Shown piece by piece: positions 1 through 59,697 of a stretch of DNA of 64,000 nt (positions are counted from its first letter, which is position 1; each line of letters opens with the position of its first letter). The stretch is from assembly GCA_027596035.1 (NCBI GenBank), contig JADGJA010000019.1:1-64000 (forward strand), written 5' to 3'. The notes under the pieces were generated by a model. The model had not been told where the DNA came from. It ran no database searches and saw nothing but the letters and a program-made list of their open reading frames with translations. Source of the DNA: Thoreauomyces humboldtii. Lineage: Eukaryota; Chytridiomycota; Chytridiomycetes; Spizellomycetales; Powellomycetaceae. The translations under genes were made by a program, and so were the position numbers.

Positions 1-481
1 GGAAAGTGTATGGGTCAGGATGAACAAAGGACATTTGGCGGTGAAATGTGAGTGCAACGGGAAACCTGAAGGCATGCCAATCCATCCGACCCTGAGTTGT
101 CGCGCAGCAGTTTGTGGTCCATGAGGATTCGGAACTCGACGTTGAAGGGCTTGGTGGTTGTCATGATGTCGATCTCGGATGAGCAGCTTCGATACAGATG
201 TACCGTGAGATAGCTAGGGGCCACGGTGCTTCGGTGGGCTCGTGCTGGAAAACGTCCTTGAAGTGTGGAGTACTGTATCCAGCACCTGAGATTTAGGCAG
301 CACGCAACGATCCGATTGGCGGTGCAAGCCTCCAAATCCCAAATTACAGTGTTCACAGAGTGTCCAACAAGTGTCTCCAGTGTCCACCCTATGCAAACTA
401 TAATAAACGTCCGACTAAAAAAGACAAATAGAACACGAAGGTACCAACACTCTTATGGAGCGGCCTCTTGGGTTGGAACCT
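1..481. other. No gene seen; 3' flank of the hydrolase gene
   Basis: Short overlapping open frames occur on both strands, but none shows a recognisable domain, a convincing start or splice pattern. The stretch lies just beyond the stop codon of the minus-strand hydrolase gene and probably contains its 3' untranslated region. Confidence 0.5.
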
Positions 482-15893: not shown

Positions 15894-18800
15894 TTACACT
15901 CCTGCCGTAAGGATCTCGCGAAGGATCTTGGGAATGTCCGGGGTGCGCAGCGCGACGAAGGCCTTTCCGGGCGGTAGCGTCCTTGTCAACCTGATTGGGC
16001 AGAACGATGGAACATGTCAGCAATAAGCAAAATACGGAAAAGAAGAGCAAGACGAGAGGAGAATCTTCAATACAAAACTTACATTGCAGCTTCTTCCCCA
16101 AAGGAGCCGATGAACAGCATGGCGCAGTTGACACGAGGGTCCGTCTCGATGATCTTACCCAGCGTCGCCGGTTGGATGCCGTAACGCTTCAGGTTGGCGT
16201 CCGACATAACGAGCACAAAGTAGTCGTCGGCGTCTTCGGCCGTAATGTCCTTGATGGCTCGTTCCGTCGCCTTGAGCGTCGTGTCGCCGGAAAAGCAGTA
16301 TTGCGAGTGGGCGGACATGGTCTGGAGAACCTTCATCCGCTCCATCTCGTTCTTCGGGGGATCGCCAGGTGCAACAAAGACGATCTTCTCGGAGTCGCCT
16401 GGTCAAAGAGAAGCGTCAAAAATCATTTTACCCGGGGTAAAGCAAGGATGGTGTGGATCATACCAGAGTGTCCGACAATGTCATACGAATACTTGTCGCC
16501 CAGCGACTGCATGCTTTCCATAATCATGAGAGCAGCCTCCAAAGATCTGCCCAAGCGCCCGTCGTGTTCGTTATAACTATACATAGACGCCGATACGTCG
16601 AACACAAACTTCAATCGTTTTGGCTTGTTCTGCGTAGCTCCGTGTTCCGGTGTCTCTTCTCCGCGTCGCTTGTATATGCTCGACTCTCCCGTGAGACCCT
16701 CGATGATCTTTCCCTCGTCCAGCTCTCCATCCGTCTGGTTCTGTAGCCAGGTTCGTTCTTTCTCCCTGGCTTGGACTCCCTCCAGAATCACTTTCAGCTG
16801 ACGAATCTCCTGGCGCACGTTGCTGAAGATTTCCTTGTAGACGGTAGCCTCGTGAGCGCTCATCTTGATCTCGCTGAGTCGCTTGGCGAGAGCCTCGCGA
16901 CCCATCTGCTTTGCAGCCTCCTTGATGTGTTCAGGAACATCGTTCTTCTGCTCGTCCGAGAGTCGAACGATCGGTTGACCTTTCTTGTGTAAACGGTAAG
17001 GACCGGCTCTACCACCGATACCAGCCGTGTCGCTACCGCCGGATCCGCCGGCCCACTGGTTACCGCCGACGTGAGGTTTGTCGTCCTCCTTGCCGTGTTT
17101 GGGGCCCTTGATGTCGGCGGGGGCCTTGTTCCTTCCTTGCTCCCACTTCATGTCGAGCTTCTTCTCACCCGCAGCCGATCCCTTCTTGACGGCCTCGAAA
17201 CCGACCGCGGAAACGTTGAGACCGTGTTTTCGGAGCGCGGCGACCAGGACCTCGAAAAACTCTTTGCGATGGACGTCAAAGTCGAACACGTTTCGGAGGA
17301 TCTGATCCAGCGAGTCCTCCGGGAACGCCTGCATATGCTTGACGATGTTCATGAGCTCTCGAAGAGAATACGGATATGCGACAAGTCCGTCATCAAAGGC
17401 CTGCCGAAGCTCGCCGAACGCGTTGATGAGCTGGAACAGTATCTCAGGGTCGACGGCGGGTGCCGACTGCGAAAGAAGAGCGAGTTCCGACCGAGCGTCA
17501 GGGTTCTCGACCGCGTGGCAGGAGAAGACTTCGCCGATGGCGCCAAAGAAGTCGTTCCCAAGGAACGGGTAACCCGGTCGGTTGGCCAACACGATCAGCC
17601 GGAAGTCGGGGTGGATGACCACGTCGCGGTCGGGGTCGATGAGCCGCGGGTCTTTTGGAGGAGGTCTGATGCGACGGCCGTCGCCCAAAGCCATCTCGCC
17701 GGTCTCAGCGAGCGACTTTAGGATGCTGGTGATGTAAACCGGAGCCTTGTCGGCTTCGTCCACAATGAGCACACGACCCTTTCTGGCGGCCCTGACAAGA
17801 GGGCTATCCTTATAGCTGATTACACCACCCTCCACAACCGGCTGGATGGTCAATGACTGCACCGTACTGTCTCTGTGAAGCTGGACATACTCCCGTGGTC
17901 GACCCACGAGCTCCAGGAACCGATCCGTAAGACGATTCTTTCCCACACCTTGGTTTCCAATAAGAAGGAGATGCTCACCGAGACTGAAGTCGACGGCTAT
18001 ATCGCGCATGACGCGGGTGTGAACCTCGTTGTCATAAAAACCTGGTCCTCCCTCGGCGGTGTGAGGGATGAGAGCTCGAGCCTCTCCATCGTTCTCGTGA
18101 AGCTGGTACTTTGGCAGCGTCACATCACCAAGACGGAGAATGGTAGAGTTCTGGTCGATCGTGTACGAGATGTTCTTCTCGGCTTTCCGGATGCCAGAAT
18201 TTGCCAGCACTTCCTCCAAAGCTTGTCTCGCGAGCTGGGGGAGGAACGGACTGAGACACGTGCGATGGATCGTGGCGTACAAGTTCTCGTCCGGGTACTG
18301 TGCGAGTCGTCGACAAATGCGCAGCAGCTGACGGGTGGAGAGAGAGGTGGATTTGGCGAGGACCGTCTCGTGACCAGAACCGGCACCTTCCGCGAGCTGA
18401 CGGAAGTGAGCGGCAAAGTCAAGCAGCTGCTTGAGTTTGGCTGGTGGGCATCCTGTGAGTTCGGTCAAGAGAGCCGTTTCCTCTGCAGCTCCGATGGCGG
18501 GAACTTCGATAAACTGGAACATGGTGCCGACCTCTTCCGTCAACCACGTCATGTCCTGCTTAGTGGCTTTATGATTGAGCGTCACGCTGCTAGTACCAAT
18601 GATGCGGAAAGATGGATGCACGCGGTGGACGCCACGAGCATTGAGGTCAGCGTCCGACAGCCCCGTTGTCTCTTTCATCAGATCGAAGTTCTCGGCGCTC
18701 GTGAGGAACGAGCCGTCGGGCATAACAATCTCCCGATCCTGCAGGAGTCGCTGAAGGGAGGCCACGGTGCCAGCCCTGACCCAATGCAAGCCGTCGAGCA

Positions 18801-20670
18801 CCGCAATCTTGCCAGCAACGGCCGCCCGCACCAGTTCAGAATCCTCCCAAAAGGTACTTCCGTCTGGTCGAGTACGTCGTCGCTGCAAGAGATCGCGCGC
18901 GGTCATGTCTCGGAACAGATGAACGGTCTCAACCTCATAACCAAACAAACTCGCAAAGCGCATGACCGCGTAAGTCTTGCCGCTTCCCTTGGGTCCGACA
19001 AGGCAAATGTCTTTGCTGAGAGCATGGGCCTGCGCCATGTGCGATACAATGTCCTGGTATCGAGGGGTGTGAACGAACCGTTGACCGTAAAGTCCGATAT
19101 CTGTCGACGTCAGAGGGCTGGTTGACCCGCTCCCGAGTGTGACCTGCACGTCGGCTGGACCGGCAGCGGACCGAAAGCTCGCTTGACCACTCGCCACGTT
19201 CGTCAGATCATACTGGGATCTTCTACCTGGTTTAACATCTAGAGCGGTGTCCCAAGGCAACTCAAATTTTGCAGCGAGCTGCTGAAGCGCCTGACCCTGA
19301 TCATTATTCAACGAATTTCCAGCCCATGTGGCCGGCCAGAAACGACGCAGAGCGCCTCCAAGATCCTGAGCTTCACTAGGGAAGGCGGTCAGCAAATCCG
19401 ATATGCCGCTGATAGCGGTCTGAGGCAGTTGAGGTAGCAAAGACGAGTTCGATGCCTCGCTGGATGATATAGCCAGCTGGTCCTGGATCTCATGGGTGTA
19501 CTTGATCGTACGGACGAGATCTCTGAGCTTGACAAGAAGCTCCGCCAGGGTCTGACCCAAGGCATGGGAAGACAGCTCATCCCAGGATCGGGTCCCGAAC
19601 TCAAACTGGCTGTCAACGTATCGAACTTGGAAACGACTACGGAAAGGCGGATCGAGCGGACTCCCAGGATAAGGAGGGACGGGTAATCCCAATGCGATGA
19701 CCCGGAATCGGTCGCTCGCACGGATCAACTTCCAGGCATCCAGTTTCTCCTTAGAGTTAGCTTTCAACAGCGCGTCGTATCGCGAGGGATGGATGATGTG
19801 CGACCCGTTCTCTAGATGCATCTCTCTGTTCTCCAACAAGTTGTTCAAGACTGGCAAAACGTTGCGTTCGGCCTTTTCGATTCCCTCGATAACCAGGACG
19901 CGGCCTTCGATGGCAGCACGCACGGCAACTCCATCGATCCACTGCGCCGTGAGACCACCGCTGGAAGACTCTCGCACGATCTCGCGTCGTTGCTTCAGAT
20001 CCGACTCGGCAGATGTGTCGCGGTGTAGAGCGACATACTCGTGCTCACGATTTGTCAGGTGGAGGTACGTCATAGTGAGATGCCTTTTCAGCGGACCAGG
20101 AGGTCCTACAGATACAGTCCCAAGACAATAAGCATGTCATGCGGCAAGTCAAATGCACATCAAGAAACGTACCCTGAGAGGAATCCGTAATTCATTAGTA
20201 GAGTTCGTTAAGCGAGCCAAGATCATCCACTCACCAGCAGAAACATGTCCTGACCCAAAATATCCTTTCGCATCATCCACTGCAAATGCTCCAATACCTC
20301 CTGCAATCCCATTCCATGAGTTCTTCGAACGACGACCCACATCAGTTGATGAGCAACCTACCTGACGTTCAACGTCCAGCAGTGTCTTGGCAGGCACTTT
20401 CTCCGCCGCCTTCGCAGCCACGACATCAACGCACACTCCGCCGATGCACAACCTCCCTGAGGGATCATTTTGCAGAGATGCTGTTCCGGCGGTCGAGGTC
20501 GTCAAAGAGGCAGACAAGGTGGTCTTGAGTTGGGAAGCGACCTGCTCTATGCGCTCGAGTGCGATTCGAGTGGCGTCGTTGAGGGGAGACATGCGAGCGA
20601 CACCTGCACCACTACGACCAACGGCAAAGGTTGAATGTCGCAGCTGAGAGAACAGCAGACGTGCTCTCAT
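15894..20670 (-). CDS. VWA8: VWA8, mitochondrial AAA+ (MoxR-like) protein with C-terminal von Willebrand A domain
   Basis: Exons 20670-20362, 20300-20235, 20173 alone, 20105-16464, 16398-16083 and 15990-15894 sum to 4,431 nt, giving 1,476 residues. A basic, Arg/Ser/Leu-rich N-terminus suits mitochondrial import. Three AAA-like modules follow: a degenerate first loop FLLGPPGPLKR, then GPKGSGKTYAV, then GNQGVGKNRLTDRF with VLIVDEADKAP. A C-terminal vWA domain has the metal-site motif FDVSASM and ends in LTRTLPPGKAFVAL. Conserved segments such as ALHRDTSAESDLKQRREI and GNQWAGGSGGSDTAG match animal VWA8 closely. The protein is about 430 residues shorter than the human form as I recall it: the region between the third AAA module and the GGN-WAGG linker is nearly absent. 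The single-base exon at 20173 is needed to keep the frame (see findings). VWA8 is a mitochondrial matrix-facing ATPase of poorly defined role. Confidence 0.95.
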
Positions 20671-42015: not shown

Positions 42016-43755
42016 ATGAATATCTCTACTCCCAGCATTTTCTTGCTGGTGATGCTTGCGCGCGCCAAAGCTTCTTCAACCCCTCAGGTTTGTACGTTCG
42101 CTTTCTGAACGCCTGCTCTGCGTATACAGGACCAACCTGCACAAGGGTCGATGCCCTTCGGTCGTCGCAACGTGTCCTCAGAACGGTGCTCCACAGCTTC
42201 TCTCCTCGAGTGGACAAGTCTGCACGACATACAGCGAATGCTCGGCGACCACACAGTTCATCGGCAGTGGCAGCCTTGTGCCGCTCAATGGACAGCAGTA
42301 CACGGTCTTGTCAGGAACTACACTCGTTTTGTGCCCTGACACTGTGTGTGCGTCTGCTTTGACAGCCGGGACGACCTCTGCCACCTTCCAGTTAGGGAGT
42401 TCAGGACCGCTGACCTTGCAACCAACTGGACTCGATGGAACGTTTTATGCCGTCGTGAGCTCGACCGCATATGTCACGACGGACAATTCAACATTCTACA
42501 CATCGGTGACCAACCCACCTGCTTTCGGAAACTTATACGCCAATCCTGGTCGACAACTCATGGCGAGCTTGCCGCCCGACTCTGCAACCGCAGCCGGCAC
42601 CTTTTGGTATGGGCGAGGGGCCTCGAGGGACTGGCATGCATATCGGACAACCTCAACATGTGTTTATTCCCCAGGTACGTGCCGGTTGCGGCAGATGACT
42701 TTCGCCTAGACACGGCGGTTTGCGACGATGCCATTCGCTTTGTTGAGGGAGATTTTGCAACGTACTCCGGGTACACCTTGGTCAACTACAAATCCACGCA
42801 AGCCGGACTCACCTACTTCACACTCGGGTCCGCCGCCGAAGCCATCCCCACTCCTAGCGAGTGCCAAACCGTCCAGAATAATGCATCTAGCAACGTGCGT
42901 TATGTGTAGCCTAGCAGAATGTTCCTAGGCGCAAACTGGGACGGAACAGCCTATTTGGACGGGAACGGGACCCTTTACAACGTGACGAATGCGGCATGGA
43001 CAACGGTCCCAGATATGGCCGGCTGCCTGGATAACGGCGTGACCTACTTCAAGATCGGGGGCATCTACAAAGTTTTCTCTTCCGGCAGCGGAACTTGCGT
43101 TTTGAACACCGGCGTTCCAGTCTTGGTGGCCACTCCTCTCTACGATTTCTCCTATGAGTCTCTGACCATCACAGCCGCGGCCGCAGACCTGACCAGTGAG
43201 ACGTGCTTCCAGAACGGTACAGCCTCGTACAGCCTCAACAACACCGTGGTGAGCCCCACCCTGAACCGCTTCTCATCGACCTCCTGCAGCAACCCAACGA
43301 TCGATGCCTCCGGAAACTTCAGCAGCCTCCCCGGGAATTGCAGCAACCTCGCCGTGAACGACTATGCGAACAGCGACAGCACGATCGTGCAGTTCCTCAG
43401 CTCCAGCTACGGTTGCAGCACACCCTCCTGCATTGATGTCAGGACCTGTCTGACGGACTCGTGCCTTTACGATGACGGCCTGATGGCAGGCAACGTGAAC
43501 TGCACAACGGTGGACGGCGTTGCGATGGGCATGATCTACGTTCGAGACCCCGTCACTTCGACAACCTCGGAACCCTCTAGCACTACTAATGGAATCCCGT
43601 ATCCGACAGAGTCCATTGATTGCACCTTCGACGATAGCATCGGCACGTACACCTGCAGCGGTGCTGCCGGGTTTGCGACAAGCGGTTGGACCGGGTCTCT
43701 GTCGGTCGCTGCCACCGTGGGAGCTGCAATGGCACTTTACTTTACGCTGATCTAA
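42016..43755 (+). CDS. Secreted, probably GPI-anchored cell-surface protein
   Basis: Exon 1 (42016-42087) encodes a signal peptide (MNISTPSIFLLVMLARAKA). Exon 2 (42146-42606) joins it in phase using an AG 14 nt inside the first one. Exon 3 starts at 42675 (TG|G). The product is Ser/Thr/Gly/Asn-rich with evenly spaced Cys and repeated modules of the form Y-x-V-x-(S/N)-G-T. It ends in a Thr/Ser-rich stalk followed by a hydrophobic tail (WTGSLSVAATVGAAMALYF), as required for GPI attachment. An in-frame TAG at 42,907-42,909 interrupts exon 3. It is removed if a 54-nt intron (42,861-42,914, GT-AG, in phase) is spliced; otherwise the gene is split. No enzyme domain recognised; a wall or zoospore-surface role is inferred from topology only. 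Confidence 0.68.
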
Positions 43756-44026: not shown

Positions 44027-47000
44027 TCATGCGGGGCATTCAAATCGGCGGTCCGTTGGTTCCATGACTTTGTTGTAAAAGATAGTCGCGCACTTGTCGC
44101 ACGGGACTTGAATATCGGCGTTGTCGTCGGTATGCGCCTGGACGAATTGGGTTTCACCACCGAATCCGTCATATGGCCAGAAAGACCTATCTTCTGGCTT
44201 CAAGTCGTCGAAGATAGACGTCGACCATGCCATCCCATTGAAGTCCAGCGGAAACCTTCGTTCCGGCCAGCCCGCGTGGAACTCCTTGACCGTTCCGTTC
44301 TCGTTCGGAACCGCGTACTCTACGCCGGGTCCCAGACCGTGCACTGGTAGGTAGGCGAAGCGTCGGACGTTGTAAAGGAGGTCGAATCCTTGTGGATGTA
44401 CGTACGAATCGTCGTCAAGGGGATGGACCGTGCCGCGAGCGCCGAAAGTGCGAGTCAGCTTGACGATCAGCTCGAGGATCGCGTTCTTTTGCGCGTTGCC
44501 ATACGCGCGACTGGGTCCGAAGGCAAAGTAGACAAAGGGAACCTCGCTACATTGCAGTAGCTTCAGTAGATCCTTGTTGAGGCAAGGTCCGTCCTCAGCG
44601 ATGAACCAGATGACTTGACGGCAGTCTTGCCCCTTCGTATTCTTGCAGCGGATCTTGCTGTTTGTTACGTGTTGCTGGATCGACGCGATGTGCCTTCCGA
44701 AACTTGGCAACCGGTTTCCGGTCTTTTCTCGCTGGTAAGTGGCAGTCAGCAGGAAGAGGGCTGACTGGTCGAGCGCTAAGGGTTCGTGGATCCCGACAGC
44801 GGCAGGGGTACATGTCCCCTTGTTCTCCTCGACGGTTTCAAGAATCTGATCCGCAGCAGCTTTTGAAAGCTTGGCTGGGTTCGACCACATCTGCCCTAAT
44901 GCCTTGTGAACGAAAGTAGAAAACTCCTCCGGATCCAAGCTTTTCTGTTGGGCGACGTTGTGTTTCTTTGTCAAATCGGCGATGGGACTATCGCACTCGG
45001 ATTCTTTCGATATCGTATTCTGCAGCCAGCTCAGAGGTACCAACTGCTGCGCGTCGCAATCACTCCTCTCGCCAAGGCATTGGGAGAGAAACCACGCGGC
45101 CGTATTGCCAACATGGATCGTGCTGACTGTATTGTTGACACTCTGGCAAAGGGGCAGGAAAAGATGTTCTCCCTCGCAGAACTTCCCGCTTTTGACAGCT
45201 TGCGTTTGACCATTTGTGGGACACTGCACTGGATGGCTGTACTTGAACACGGTTGCTTTGACCTTGTTCTCGGTGTCGATGACTGTTTTGCATGACGCTT
45301 CGTCCTCGCAGGATACCCACGTCTTTCCGGCTTCCGTTTCGAGCGCTTGCTGCGTACTTGCCGGAGAATTCACATCCGCCAGCTGGGAAAAAAGGGATTT
45401 CGTGCGCTGATTCGACCTGACGAAGAAGTTGCCGGGATAGAGCTCATTTGCGAGCATTTCCTAACGATGATCCGAAATTCCATGAGCAATGCTCATAAAT
45501 TCGGAGTTGAGGGCTTGTGATGTTACCTTTTCATCGTTCAGAATCATATCCGCACTTTGAGCGATCGCGTAGGAGTCAAGGAGATTTCTCACATAAGCAA
45601 TGTTCCTGTATGCGGGTGTCAGCTGGTGAAGCAATGCGAAAAGGAAACAAGACCCGTCTGGACTACTTACAGGTCACCCACATGCACCGCAACTCCTTGC
45701 TTCAGAAGCTCGTGCGCAAGTTGTAACTTTCCGGCACTTTCTTGAAGTCCCGACTTGCCGATATCCCAGCACGGCAGATTCATGTCGAGACACATGTCCA
45801 ATGTTTTGCTGTTCACCGCGACAATATAGGATTTCATCTTTCCGAAGGTTACCAGGGTGTAGATGTTGTTCATAAGAAGGTTCCTAACAGCTCATAAACG
45901 TCAGCATATAGTACGCATAAAGCGCTAGTTACAAGCTTGTCCTACCGATCTCGGGTGTCATTGAAAAGGAGAAGACTGACAATCCTGTTCGTATCGGCGT
46001 CATGGTGACTTGTAACCGAGGCTAGTAACTTCTCGAGGTTCGACTGTTGACCGTACCAGTCAAACGACATCGAGCTTTGGAAGGAAGGTTGAGAAGTTTA
46101 CCACGGTAAAAACGAGTGCAATAAACTTACCCAGATGGCATGACCCATGGAGCGCTAAGTATCAAATCCTGTTCCAGCCACGACTGACTGAAGGACTCTC
46201 CTTTCATGGTCGCCTGCGCTACTGCCGACATCTCTGGCAGGAACTCTCGCTGCGGCTGATAACCGAGCACCTTCTTCATCTTGCATGTATCAGCCAAGGT
46301 CTTCATCAGATCGTTCTTTCGACCCGTAACGTGCACTTGGTTGGGAGACACCAGATCCGCCACTTGCTGCACGGTGTATCCCGTCCCTGTACCCAGGTTG
46401 ATGACCTGCCCTCGGACTGTTTCCGTCTGCTGCGCCAGGATGAGTCCTTCGACGATGTCTTTCACGTGAATAAAGTCTCGAGAGTGATCTCCTTCGCCTT
46501 CGATGGTAAGGGGAAGCCCGGCTGCAGCTTGGCGTGCGAAAACGCCAGTAACAATTGCATATGCCCCTTTGCTCGGTTGCCGCGGTCCGTATACCATAAA
46601 TAACCTTAAGCTCACTAGACAAATATCAACTCATGTGCAAGGAGGAAAGAAGGTGTGCGAAAAAAGCTTACCAGTGGGTACACCGAAAAGGTTATTGAAC
46701 ATCTGCATTTGCATCTCGCCTTCGAACTTCGATGCGGCATAGGGGGTGATGAAATCGGGCTGAAAGATGTTTTATCAGCCACAAACTTGTGCAGGAGACC
46801 GCAAAGATACACTTGCTCACAGCATCACGTTCGGATTGTGGAGCCGGTTGATTTCCGTAATACGTGGACGACGCGGCGTACATGACCTTCTTGATTTTAT
46901 GCTTTCGTGCAGCGTCAAGAACATCTGCAAATCCCGTGGTTAATTTCGCTGCTTGATCATCACAGCGAACTAGACACTTACTCCATGACCCGAGCGCATT

Positions 47001-49125
47001 GACCTCGGTGCAAAAGCGAGCCATGTCAGGGTTCTTCAGACTGGGAGCAACCTTGCTCATTGCAGCAAGATGGAAGACATATTCCATCCCTTCCATGGCT
47101 GTATCGAGAGCAGCAGGATCCATGATGTCTCCGAGAACGAAATCAAGATTGGCATGACCGCGCGGAACATGACGGATGGAGCCCGTGGCGAGGTTGTCGA
47201 AAACGCGGACATCGTAGCCAAGCTCCAAGAGACGGTCAACCAGCTGAGAGATGGCAAATTTAGCTTCCTTCTAGAATAAGCCACGCGTAGCGGTCGACCT
47301 ACTGTAGAGCCGATAAACCCTGCGTTTGACAAAAAGGTTGAATATATAAGAGCTTCGTCGGGTGATGTTACCGACAATTTATAACTCACCAGCTCCGCCA
47401 GTCACCAGCACTTTGGTTTTTCTCACCGAAGACGCAACCCGCGGGGACTGCAAAATCACGTCCTCGCAAGGGTCATTTCCCAAAGATGCGTTTCGATTGC
47501 CGGCTGCCAAATTCATCTTCTCGTCGATAGTATTTTGTAGAGCGGACGCGCTTCGATGGGCAGCCATCGTGGTTGACCCCACAATCAGTAGCACACCAGC
47601 GAGGAGGAACGCAACAACACTGGAAAGCGTTCGTTTCTTGGAGGACAGGGCTTTCAAGTGATGCGCCGGCAGGATAGCCACGTCTTTGTACCAGATCTTT
47701 CACAATCTTTAGCGTATGATACAGTCGGTTTCATCGTGCTTCCGTGTGCAAACGTACCATGCCAGCGAGGGTGATGCCGTATCCCACAACTTGCAATGTG
47801 CTAATCGGCGTGCTCCATATGAGGATGGAAACGAATACGAGAATGATGTCTTTGCCGATTCCGGAAAGACACATGACGAGCGACGAGGTTTTGCCAATCT
47901 ACATGAGCGTTTGGTTGCATGAGCACGGTGTTAGAATCCCACTCGGATCCGAATGAAGTTACCAGGGATACGACAGCGCAGTTCAATGCAAAGGCCACAG
48001 CGGCGTTTGATATCAGCGTAAAAGGTCCGATGTGGTAGAATGCATCCATGTTTAACCTAGGCGCTTCCACAATCAGACAGGCGATTCCATTCATAAGAGC
48101 GCAGATCTGGAGAGTCGTGAAGATTAAATCAGCCAGCAAAAAATTTCGCAGAAGCGCATGATCCATGCTTTACCGGTGCAACGTGGTAGAGAGAACACAA
48201 GGGATCCATCTTGTAAGCTTTCAAAAGCTTTTGAATCAAGACAAGTCGGACTGCCTCAGAGACGATGCCACACGCTTGAAAGGCCACTCCCACAATGACG
48301 AAATTGAATTCACCGTAGGAAGCAAGCACAACGCCCGAGACGATGACCATGACCTTGGCAAGGATGCCCCAGTTTGGCTTATCGGTTCCGAGGGTCCATC
48401 CGCATAAGAGTACGGCAACAGGGGTCGTAGCCTGCAAATGAAAACAGAGTGAGTGTTCCTGGGTCCCCATCGAGGCCTTGCGCATAGAGTCCTCGTTCAT
48501 TTTCGTTTACCTTGAGCATCTGAATGAATGCTACGGAGAGATGTAAGTAGGCGAGATTCGAAAAGATCAGGCTCGCCGAGAAAAAGGCACCGATGGGAAC
48601 TATGGCCTGCGGTTTTTTGACAGAGCGACATCAGCATGTGCGGTCAAGGCCCTCTTTCAATCTCTGATCATGTCTTTGCACCTTGAAATAGGTGGCATTG
48701 TCGAGCAAGACTGAGTCAACGCCCGAAAGGAGTCTGGTCGTCTTCCGTAGCACGCGGGTAGCAACGGTAGCAAAGACGAGATGCCAGGTTGTAAGGAAGA
48801 TGGGAAAGGCTGTGCATGGACGGAGTCGCGTCAGAGCGGTAAAGTCAAGTGATCACGCTTCCTGCAAAGACCGGCACTTACGAAAGCCGCCTCTGTCCAG
48901 GATCTGCTTGTTGAAAAGAATGACGGAGCACGACAAGGTCATCCAAACGATGATGTAGACGGCAGGATGGATGCCTCTTGTGACTGGGAGAGGACGAGGT
49001 GATTCATGATCGTCGGATAGCAGCAGCGAAGTGTCTGAGCTGCTCTCGTCGCGCATGTCTAAGATTGCGCTTTTGGAGACCTTGATACTTGCAGGTGCAT
49101 TCTTGGGAGAGTCGTCGAGGCCCAT
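44027..49125 (-). CDS. Fused nucleotide-sugar transporter / NAD-epimerase / PF03407-like transferase / GT43-like transferase
   Basis: Sixteen exons, all GT-AG with introns of 56-79 nt and consistent phase at every junction, sum to 4,128 nt (1,375 residues). Residues 1-340: ten-helix TPT/nucleotide-sugar transporter (LHLSVAFIQMLK, then TTPVAVLLCGWTLG; ends GYGITLAGM|IWYK). Residues ~360-381: an eleventh span (TLSSVVAFLLAGVLLIVGS). ~430-757: extended SDR epimerase with TGGAGFIGS, FHLAAMS and catalytic YAASK. ~770-1,070: PF03407-like transferase (YTLVTFGKMKSYIVAVNSKT, then NFFVRSNQRTKSLF). ~1,135-1,375: GT43-like with LDDDSYV, FHAGWPERRFPLDFNGMA and GFGGETQF. Junctions between modules lie at introns 47,697-47,757 and 46,075-46,130. 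If these were not spliced, the transporter would end nine residues later and the epimerase at PSG, and the epimerase would have no upstream ATG. Exon 8 is only 17 nt. Golgi location is inferred. Confidence 0.82.
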
Positions 49126-57778: not shown

Positions 57779-59697
57779 ATGACGGCTTCGTTGCGACGAT
57801 GGCGCTCAGCCGACGGGTTCTTCCCAAAAAACTCTCACGATAGCAAGGACAAGCCCATCCGACGCAGATCTCTCTTCGGCTGGCTACGGAACGAAGACGA
57901 CCGCAACGCTCGGCAAACGACGGTGCGCACAATCGTCTTTGCTGTCGCTTTGTGGTTCCTCGCTATCGCACTCAGAAGGATACACCTGAACAATTCTATC
58001 CGAAGGTAGACTACGTTTGACCAACTAATATGGTATCAGCGTTATCTGAATCTCACTGTGTCTTAGAAAGAGCACATGCGACTCCGAGTCGGACGACGTT
58101 CCATACGAGTGCGTGGATACGATCGAAAGACTTAAAATCCTGACCGAGCCAGCTCGCCGAACCCCGCGCATCTGGGACTGGCACAACATGGTTCCTCGTT
58201 CTCGTCTCTTCCGCTCCCTGCTGGAAGAACGGTACACCATCGCAGGACATGAAAAAGCAAACTGTCTTCGCTTCATTGGCCCAGAGCACACCGGAGTTCC
58301 CACGCTGCCCCAGCTTGATGCCGTTATTATGGAGATACAGAACGATCTCTACCCTTTCGTTGCAACTCCAACAAGCCGTTTCCCATCAGCGCAACACCTC
58401 TTACGTTCCTATTCTGGTCGAGGGATTGTCATGACCACCGGGAACAGGCACACGCGGTTCGCTCTCAACACCATCAGGATGGTCAGATCACTCGGATGCA
58501 ACCTTCCCATCCAGATCTTTTACGCAAACAATCTCGATCTGAACGGAACGCATTTCAAGGAGCTCGCTTCACTCCCGAATGTCGAACTCCTTGACATGTC
58601 CAAACACATCGACATCCATGCGGCGTCTCGAGGCGAACCCCTCGCTCATCTCGGCTGGGCAATGAAACCTTTCTCGATGCTGGCTTCCCGGTTCCAGGAG
58701 ATCATTCTCCTCGATGCGGATGTCATGTTCTTGCAAAATCCCGAGGTCATGTTCGAATATCCACTTTACAAGGATACCGGCATCTTGCTCTTCAGAGATC
58801 GAACCCTTTACCCAGGAAACACACTGCATGCGCTCCTGAGCAGGATGATGGAGGAAACACCAATGAGCGATTATTACCGCAAGGAAGGACGAACGGGCAG
58901 CGCTCTATCTACTCACGAAGGAGAGTCGGGTGTCATCGTGGTCGACAAGCATCGCAACTTCCACTCTCTGCTGATGGCATGCAAGATGAATTCGGGACCC
59001 TATCAGCGAGATATGTATGAGACCGTCCTTGGTAGGTTCCGTTGAACTTTGTCTCGACCCATGATAACCGTCCTTGTCTGATGCACTCCTTACATAAGGT
59101 GACAAGGAGTCTTACTGGATGGCACAAGAGATACTCGATCTCCCCTACAGCTGGGCGCCCGGCGGCGGTGGTTCCATCGGCTATCTAGAACCTCATCCCA
59201 ACGACCCGAATATCATCAAGATCTGTGGTCAGCTCTATCACCCCGATCCCGACTTCCGTCCTCTCTGGGCCAACGGAGGCATGCTCAGCAACAAGCGAGA
59301 TCCCAAGGGAGAGGACATCGTCGAGTTCACGCACTGGGCCACCGACAAGACCTACAGGAACGTCGTGTGGGATTGGGAGAAAGCCAACAAACCGTTCTGC
59401 ATGCATCGCAGGAAGGATAGAGAAGGAAAGGATTGGGGTCCGCTGTCGCGAAGGGAGCTGGACATCATCGACAGGGCACTGAAGGATTGGAAGGAGATCG
59501 TGCACTTTGGGGACGGAAATGGGAAACAGGGTGGGAAGGTCAAGGTGGACGTGGACTGGGTCGCAAAGAAGATGGTCGCGGAAGAAGCCGTCAAACGTCA
59601 CCAGCCGAAAGATCTCAAGGATGGGGTTCATGGAAAGGGTGCTTTCGATAGCCGCGACACCCTCGAGCAAGGTCGGCCAATCATGCACGGTGCTTGA
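57779..59697 (+). CDS. MNN1-family alpha-1,3-mannosyltransferase-like protein (GT71)
   Basis: Three exons (57779-58005, 58067-59031, 59099-59697), in phase, give 596 residues. A basic N-terminal tail and a single span (RTIVFAVALWFLAIALRRIH) give a type II Golgi topology. The catalytic domain starts with GRGIVMTTGNRHTRFALNTI, a family signature, continues with LPIQIFYANNLDL and carries the metal-binding DxD in ILLDADVMFLQNPE. SGVIVVDKHRNFHSLLMACK and an ESYWMAQEI helix follow, also typical. The C-terminal 70 residues are Lys-rich and disordered. MNN1-type enzymes add mannose to N- or O-linked glycans of secreted and wall proteins. The family assignment is strong; linkage and acceptor are not predictable. 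It lies 10 kb from other glycan genes but is not co-directional with them. Confidence 0.9.

Follow-up and report, generated by a model that had tools for sequence, protein, structure and literature searches.

The present work deals with the predicted gene HKX48_002908, located on the minus strand of a 64,000-nucleotide stretch of DNA from the chytrid fungus Thoreauomyces humboldtii (contig JADGJA010000019.1, positions 1 to 64,000; this whole stretch is referred to as the window). Its product joins in one chain a transporter of the TPT family, an additional (eleventh) membrane span, an epimerase of the short-chain dehydrogenase/reductase (SDR) type, a module resembling PF03407 and a GT43-like glycosyltransferase module. 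With a probability of roughly 0.6, the chain exists as such, as a single secretory-pathway protein, which would import a sugar linked to uridine diphosphate (UDP), epimerise it in the lumen and use the product by means of its GT43 module. The one-chain layout with transporter, extra span, epimerase and GT43, as read from the DNA in an earlier note, is backed by exons 7 and 16, which run across or beyond module borders, and by the finding of the same order in a second chytrid order. The sequence observation behind that note is thus confirmed, and its interpretation is partly supported.

The reading frame and the modules of the protein

When the exon set was reassembled from the DNA, a coding sequence of 4128 nt (1375 codons and a stop) was obtained, which has no internal stop and is divided by 15 introns of 56-79 nt, all of the GT-AG type; the donor of intron 10 at 46820 keeps the frame open. 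The rebuilt product is identical at every residue to the GenBank entry HKX48_002908 (P0001), a hypothetical protein of T. humboldtii. The single spliced frame of 4,128 nt with 16 GT-AG exons described in the earlier note is therefore confirmed. Further, a domain search of the joined protein, proposed there as a check, places TPT, Epimerase, PF03407 and GT43 in this order, with each match above its Pfam gathering score, and the extra span lies between the first two (Table 1).

The TPT match extends over residues 55-340 (75.2 bits versus a gathering score of 30) and covers positions 4-290 of the 291-position profile; a simple hydropathy scan separates fewer than all ten TPT spans. The eleventh span, with a mean hydropathy of 2.29, is the most hydrophobic of the entire protein, and the net charge around it is +4 on the N side and 0 on the C side. 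The termini of nucleotide-sugar transporters are described as facing the cytosol (PMC9368800), and it had been argued in the earlier note that an added span would turn the enzymes towards the lumen. This argument is strengthened by an alignment, in which the linker containing the span matches one-to-one the N-terminal anchor region of a related protein without transporter from Gaertneriomyces semiglobifer (P0004; 28% over 74 residues, E 4.4e-6), and the alignment suggests that a stand-alone type II epimerase once contributed its signal anchor as the eleventh span. A charge bias predicting a cytosolic N side was seen in 9 of 14 fused relatives (equal in 2 and opposite in 3) and in 44 of 68 unfused ones (equal in 16 and opposite in 8), after 12 further unfused proteins with a weak or late span had been dropped from the count.

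The epimerase is the best defined of the modules. Its Pfam match (residues 433-671) scores 176.1 bits versus a gathering score of 20.9, and the two motifs reported as intact, viz. TGGAGFIGS and YAASK, were both located, at residues 436-444 and 574-578, together with S551/S552, Y574 and K578; the Tyr and Lys of the catalytic motif are invariant in 36/36 aligned rows. A DPC motif lies between the span and the epimerase and an ADTC motif at residues 704-707, and this combination with the preceding span fits the DPC/ADTC pattern of Golgi type II epimerases. Among 95 retrieved proteins that contain the Rossmann pattern, DPC precedes this pattern in 92, [AH][DN]TC occurs at the expected position in 92, and both are present in 90; one of the five exceptions (P0113) falls outside the epimerase family. 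The paired conservation of these cysteines, which may form a disulfide, as well as four sequons in the enzyme part of HKX48_002908, fit a lumenal domain.

The two remaining modules differ in their state of preservation. The earlier note had spoken of two glycosyltransferases, and this is not borne out for the first of them. A relationship to PF03407 does stand, since its Pfam match (residues 852-963) reaches 30.1 bits versus a gathering score of 22 with the whole protein, over a partial profile (54-160 of 208); however, the second Asp of the DxD motif expected of a transferase is lacking and the sequence reads D871-L-N873 instead. In the same place DTD or DAD is found in three Allomyces rows (P0030, P0034 and P0036) and in a second Gaertneriomyces protein (P0111), whereas it is missing in Cladochytrium tenue, P0004, Irineochytrium (DTN) and the aligned ascomycete rows, and Blastocladiella P0032 has also lost it. 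A profile of this module gave no match among solved structures. Its identity to the proteins P0002 (C. tenue) and P0004 is only 33-34%, versus far higher values for the other modules, and this low identity together with DLN in the DxD place suggests decay. It is thus probably degenerate as a transferase, most likely a worn-out enzyme kept as a spacer or binding part, although a D-x-N sequence is no proof of inactivity. The GT43 module, in contrast, agrees with what had been described, viz. a GT43-like transferase with DDD and a Glu: its Pfam score is 45.5 bits versus a gathering score of 27, and both elements were located (Table 1). A profile made from four chytrid GT43 sequences matched 4 human glucuronosyltransferase sequences in the PDB (best 7.2e-7), with a fifth, unrelated match at E 7; with the single sequence the human enzymes were matched at 5.5e-4. 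Glu 1334 stands opposite the Glu of human GT43 (2d0j) in the profile alignment and is one residue off in the single-sequence alignment. The human Glu is presumably the catalytic base, and an Asp cluster together with this Glu is expected of a GT43 enzyme.

Table 1. Position of the HKX48_002908 gene, its exons and its modules in the window
Feature	Residues	Coordinates	Strand	Basis or remark
Fusion gene HKX48_002908		49125..44027	minus	16 exons, 15 GT-AG introns, rebuilt from DNA
Exons 1-6		49125-48882, 48809-48682, 48606-48511, 48431-48174, 48106-47963, 47898-47758	minus	
Exons 7-11		47696-47390, 47319-47303, 47243-46982, 46924-46821, 46759-46672	minus	
Exons 12-16		46614-46131, 46074-45946, 45883-45671, 45605-45527, 45460-44027	minus	
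Transporter module (TPT), exons 1-7	46-345	47673..48990	minus	Pfam TPT 7.5e-21
Exon 7		47390..47696	minus	Transporter tail IWYKD, eleventh span, DPC and start of Rossmann fold, uninterrupted
Eleventh span	364-382	47562..47618	minus	Hydropathy scan; charge count
DPC motif, between span and epimerase	412-414	47466..47474	minus	Conservation paired with C707 (ADTC)
SDR epimerase module	433-745	46169..47411	minus	Pfam Epimerase 1e-51; best PDB 6wjb 1.2e-49
PF03407-like module	759-1000	45155..46073	minus	Pfam Nucleotid_trans 5.9e-7
DLN in DxD place	871-873	codons 45675..45602, split by intron 14	minus	Alignment
GT43 module, all in exon 16	1179-1359	44078..44620	minus	Pfam Glyco_transf_43 9.9e-12
DDD of GT43	1247-1249	44408..44416	minus	Last two Asp in 4/4 chytrid sequences, first in 3/4
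Glu of GT43	1334	44153..44155	minus	Kept in 4/4 chytrid sequences

Related proteins in fungi and in a dinoflagellate-like lineage

A protein search with HKX48_002908 gave 45 matches among 7984 scored candidates. The most important of these come from C. tenue, which according to the NCBI taxonomy belongs to a chytrid order other than the Spizellomycetales, the order of T. humboldtii. Two proteins of this species, P0002 and P0003, which are 87% identical and lie on separate contigs, carry the transporter, epimerase and GT43 in the order seen in HKX48_002908; P0002 is partial and P0003 has a gap in the transporter. A search for the same architecture in other chytrids, as suggested in the earlier note, has thus found it in C. 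tenue with the module order kept, and its PF03407 module, which does not reach E 0.1 in Pfam, is visible only by alignment (33% over 84 residues). The transporters of HKX48_002908 and P0002 are 64% identical over 263 residues, the epimerase is 74-76% identical to those of P0002 and P0004, and the GT43 modules are 52-57% identical. In G. semiglobifer, P0004 consists of an N-terminal anchor, the epimerase, the middle module (Pfam E 0.02, under the cut-off) and GT43, without a transporter. The other Gaertneriomyces protein, P0111 (BC832DRAFT_557980), resembles HKX48_002908 in that a TPT-type transporter and an extra span precede an epimerase of the same family in a single polypeptide, but it ends in a PF03407 module with DAD and is without GT43.

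The epimerase is a member of a wider signal-anchored family. Ascomycete proteins of about 760 residues (e.g. P0005 and P0010) show an anchor, DPC, the epimerase and a PF03407-like module in the same order, and most of the long proteins of this kind reach 43-46% identity; unlike HKX48_002908, they have no transporter and no GT43. In the Blastocladiomycota (P0030-P0037, from Allomyces and Blastocladiella), the same epimerase and a PF03407-like module follow a polytopic N-terminal region, which in the four proteins inspected has 7-9 hydrophobic segments. That this region is a hidden TPT transporter was considered and rejected, as hhalign showed no similarity to either TPT set (probability 0.1). 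This lumenal epimerase family, which is uncharacterised, spans ascomycetes, chytrids, Blastocladiomycota and dinoflagellates.

The closest stand-alone relatives of the transporter, among the best 120 of 1682 matches, are from Geranomyces variabilis (69% identity over 86% of the query and 71% over 65%); other chytrid and ascomycete proteins show 52-62% identity, including five Aspergillus proteins annotated as UDP-galactofuranose transporters, with 55-57% over 86-90% of the query. The names of these five provide a lead to the substrate. A close paralogue of the transporter (P0035; L013/L014, contig C608; 69%) is present in T. humboldtii itself, where it is followed by an extra span and a DUF3431 domain (PF11913, 3.5e-38), and this constitutes a second fusion of a transporter to a lumenal domain in this genome. 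In an 877-residue protein of Aspergillus granulosus (P0044), a PF04488 glycosyltransferase domain precedes TPT, which could be either a fusion or a merged model.

Outside fungi, a search with P0038 gave 87 matches among 7999 scored candidates, and six long proteins (P0038 and P0046-P0050) were found in which, as in HKX48_002908, a TPT-type transporter, an extra span and an epimerase of this family form one polypeptide. These differ from it in ending after the epimerase and in the lineage of their transporter. Three of them have transcript names, which are of the MMETSP type for P0038 and P0047 and of the Trinity type for P0049. Their source appears to be dinoflagellate-like, because the epimerase-only relatives are named as Effrenium voratum (a dinoflagellate) and Polarella glacialis. 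The TPT modules of this set form a separate lineage on the TPT tree, yet they are homologous to the fungal set (hhalign probability 97.7%). Further, P0110 (545 residues, from a contig of 1802 bases) carries the last quarter of the PF04142 transporter profile together with the same epimerase family, and thus a further family of transporters apparently took part in such a fusion; the start of P0110 may be incomplete. In P0063, the epimerase has a plain anchor and is joined to a GT8 module.

On the epimerase tree of 37 modules (37 of 40 rows, as P0058, P0076 and P0078 were lost), the fused state changes 8 times, and 6 of these changes are forced by the starred branches. P0003, which is nearly identical to P0002 apart from its gap, was omitted from both this tree and the TPT tree. 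On the TPT tree, for which the groups tested were named after the first tree had been seen, the modules of T. humboldtii and C. tenue do not form one clade, but the result is borderline (p-AU, the p value of the approximately unbiased test, 0.054, and 0.034 when P0111 is included); the epimerase tree does not reject their clade (p-AU 0.141). Due to these two results, it is possible that transporter and epimerase were joined only once within chytrids and that the transporter was lost or exchanged afterwards. Grouping of the nine fused dinoflagellate-like proteins as one clade was rejected (p-AU 0.006), with the caveat that P0051, P0053 and P0073 are shorter than the rest and that the unfused relatives may be truncated transcripts.

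Elsewhere in the window, an open frame at 58050-59045 (+), about 9 kb from the fusion gene, matches Mannosyl_trans3 (PF11051, 1.5e-36) and represents another glycosyltransferase. The open frame at 42910-43755 (+) is convergent with the fusion gene and has a hydrophobic C-terminal end and no Pfam match, and that at 16423-20136 (-) encodes 1237 residues with three dynein-related AAA_5 domains, which we take to be midasin-like.

Proposed mechanism and alternative interpretations

According to the proposed mechanism, the first part of the chain would be a TPT-family nucleotide-sugar transporter with both of its termini in the cytosol, and the eleventh span would carry the downstream modules into the lumen of the Golgi (or endoplasmic reticulum). 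The SDR module, with nicotinamide adenine dinucleotide bound, would there epimerise the imported UDP-sugar, and GT43 would take the epimerised product as its donor for extending a glycan. This import-convert-transfer scheme, which was put forward in the earlier note, is a reasonable inference; translation as one chain in T. humboldtii, the lumenal location, the transport of a UDP-sugar, the GT43 donor and the hand-over between modules are all part of what we infer. In its fullest form the chain would be a self-contained Golgi machine, in which the sugar is imported, converted and passed on to the transferase of the same polypeptide; a donor that the cell makes at no other site would then be both formed and consumed at the exit of the transporter. 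Selection would have favoured such joining repeatedly, in chytrids as well as in the dinoflagellate-like lineage, and with transporters of more than one kind. This fuller form is advanced tentatively, as a somewhat doubtful extension of the scheme.

The position of epimerisation is most likely C4, as judged from the sequence and fold neighbours. The closest solved structures by sequence are 4-epimerases of UDP-N-acetylglucosamine (UDP-GlcNAc) and UDP-glucose, and the same enzymes are nearest in a fold search made with a model of P0038 (not of HKX48_002908), the results of which were filled by epimerase structures. In both comparisons the 4-epimerases of UDP-glucuronate (UDP-GlcA) rank below them (Z gap of about 2-3 in the fold search). 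The epimerase did not reach the NCBIfam cut-off of the GalE equivalog TIGR01179 (135.5 bits versus 262.3). The P0038 model has a mean predicted local distance difference test score (pLDDT) of 83.5; however, due to its predicted template modelling score of 0.60 and its unsure linker, it is uninformative as to how the modules face each other.

Several observations weigh against the proposed mechanism. The named relatives of the transporter carry UDP-galactofuranose, a sugar which is not used in the scheme. The known donors of GT43 enzymes are UDP-GlcA or UDP-xylose, whereas the epimerase resembles an enzyme for UDP-hexose or UDP-N-acetylhexosamine; the epimerase thus points to UDP-glucose or UDP-GlcNAc and GT43 to UDP-GlcA or UDP-xylose. 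The opposite charge bias in three of the 14 fused proteins and a pLDDT below 50 in the linker of the P0038 model (323-331 and 352-383) also count here. Lastly, the fusions of T. humboldtii and C. tenue are predicted gene models, of which P0002 is incomplete and P0003 lacks part of the transporter, and retention of intron 6 would yield a complete stand-alone transporter.

Of the alternatives, the one that survives best keeps the same layout but assumes a uronate or pentose, viz. that UDP-GlcA or UDP-xylose is imported, epimerised to UDP-galacturonate or UDP-arabinose and transferred by GT43. This is a serious possibility, although its chances are less than even. It accords with the match of GT43 to human glucuronosyltransferases and with exons for a UDP-glucuronate decarboxylase on contig C819 of this genome (best PDB match UXS1, 4.9e-45). 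In addition, Chytridiomycota are predicted to make UDP-GlcA, UDP-galacturonate and UDP-xylose (PMC8092308), and plants are described as carrying out the same steps with separate proteins (PMC6019018). The lower rank of the UDP-GlcA 4-epimerases speaks against it. UDP-glucose dehydrogenase was also not found in the T. humboldtii genome by Pfam search, but this counts little: no match was seen by this search for PF03721, PF00984 (both UDP-glucose dehydrogenase) or PF03275 (UDP-galactopyranose mutase), and these absences are not used because PF01704 (UDP-glucose pyrophosphorylase) was missed as well, control genomes included, while the decarboxylase exons are present. UDP-N-acetylgalactosamine is not among the sugars predicted for Chytridiomycota in PMC8092308, which argues against the presence of a simple UDP-GlcNAc epimerase in the known set.

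In another interpretation the chain is real, but the transporter serves merely as an anchor and Golgi address, and the enzymes draw on the general lumenal pool with no hand-over. The alternation of fused and unfused epimerases on the tree (8 changes) indicates that one anchor is also sufficient for the enzymes to function; further, P0035 joins a close transporter paralogue to the unrelated lumenal DUF3431, as if it were a handy anchor, and P0063 manages with a plain anchor and GT8. However, the transporter is well conserved (64% identity with Cladochytrium over 263 residues and 69% with P0035), which would be needless for a mere anchor, and the same epimerase family is joined to transporters of no fewer than two lineages, and perhaps of a third if the partial PF04142 case is counted, which is more than chance anchors suggest. 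For these reasons this interpretation is regarded as unlikely, though not negligible.

It is also unlikely, and is given a very low probability, that the gene predictor has merged two or three neighbours, such as a transporter gene and a separate epimerase-transferase gene. Stand-alone relatives are known for both halves, and the product of intron 6 retention, the alternative pointed out in the earlier note, would be 345 residues long and end in AGMVRLHTEAR; such a short form may possibly occur alongside the full chain. However, exon 7 bridges the transporter and the epimerase, exon 16 contains the end of the PF03407-like module and the whole of GT43, and the same join recurs in C. tenue as well as in another lineage, where some of the proteins bear transcript names. 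The frame of exon 7 is closed immediately upstream by a stop within intron 6, and it has no Met before the eleventh span, the first one being residue 381 at the end of the span; due to this, a separate epimerase starting in exon 7 would lose its anchor, or it would need an unseen upstream exon. That the extra span fails to traverse the membrane and thereby leaves the enzymes in the cytosol is the least credible reading, as despite the three fused proteins without the expected charge bias and the low confidence of the span in the P0038 model, the span exceeds all others of the protein in hydrophobicity, can be aligned with an N-terminal anchor, has +4 in the linker on its near side and is followed by a conserved Cys pair.

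Comparison with known systems and significance

The separate parts of HKX48_002908 are of known kinds. The UgtA and UgtB proteins of Aspergillus niger are Golgi UDP-galactofuranose transporters of 399 and 339 residues (PMC4630932); the HKX48_002908 transporter is, like them, a fungal TPT-type protein, and the so-named proteins, by annotation, are 55-57% identical to it, but UgtA and UgtB carry no enzyme. In plants, UUAT1 brings in UDP-GlcA, which GAE, UXS and UXE then convert in the lumen (PMC6019018), and the C terminus of MUR4 is lumenal (PMC3283625). The scheme proposed for HKX48_002908, in which an anchored SDR enzyme of the Golgi lumen would 4-epimerise an imported UDP-sugar, resembles the plant GAE and MUR4/UXE enzymes with UUAT1/UXT; however, the plant importers and epimerases are separate proteins, with no transporter or transferase on the epimerase chain. 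The human GT43 enzymes (1fgg, 3cu0, 2d0j and 1v82) have in common with the chytrid module the GT43 profile, the Asp cluster and the aligned Glu, but they are stand-alone and the match is weak. The nearest published idea is a non-covalent transporter-transferase assembly: SLC35A-MGAT assemblies bring a transporter and a transferase together in Golgi membranes (PMC6453868), as proposed for HKX48_002908, but they consist of separate chains and include no epimerase.

Among the literature matches listed (titles and abstract openings, with few subscription journals), no nucleotide-sugar transporter fused to an epimerase was found, nor was a chain with transporter, epimerase and transferase. The statement in the earlier note that no described protein of this layout was known is supported to this extent; however, the layout is not unique, in view of the Cladochytrium, Gaertneriomyces and dinoflagellate-like relatives.

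Whether nucleotide-sugar transporters feed a shared lumenal pool or deliver their cargo directly is treated as an open question in PMC6453868, which approaches it through complexes formed by separate proteins. In a natural protein that links transporter, epimerase and transferase covalently, the partners are fixed, and the question becomes testable. Further, the repeated fusion ties an uncharacterised family of lumenal epimerases to nucleotide-sugar import, and it hints that chytrids have a glycan pathway which has yet to be described.

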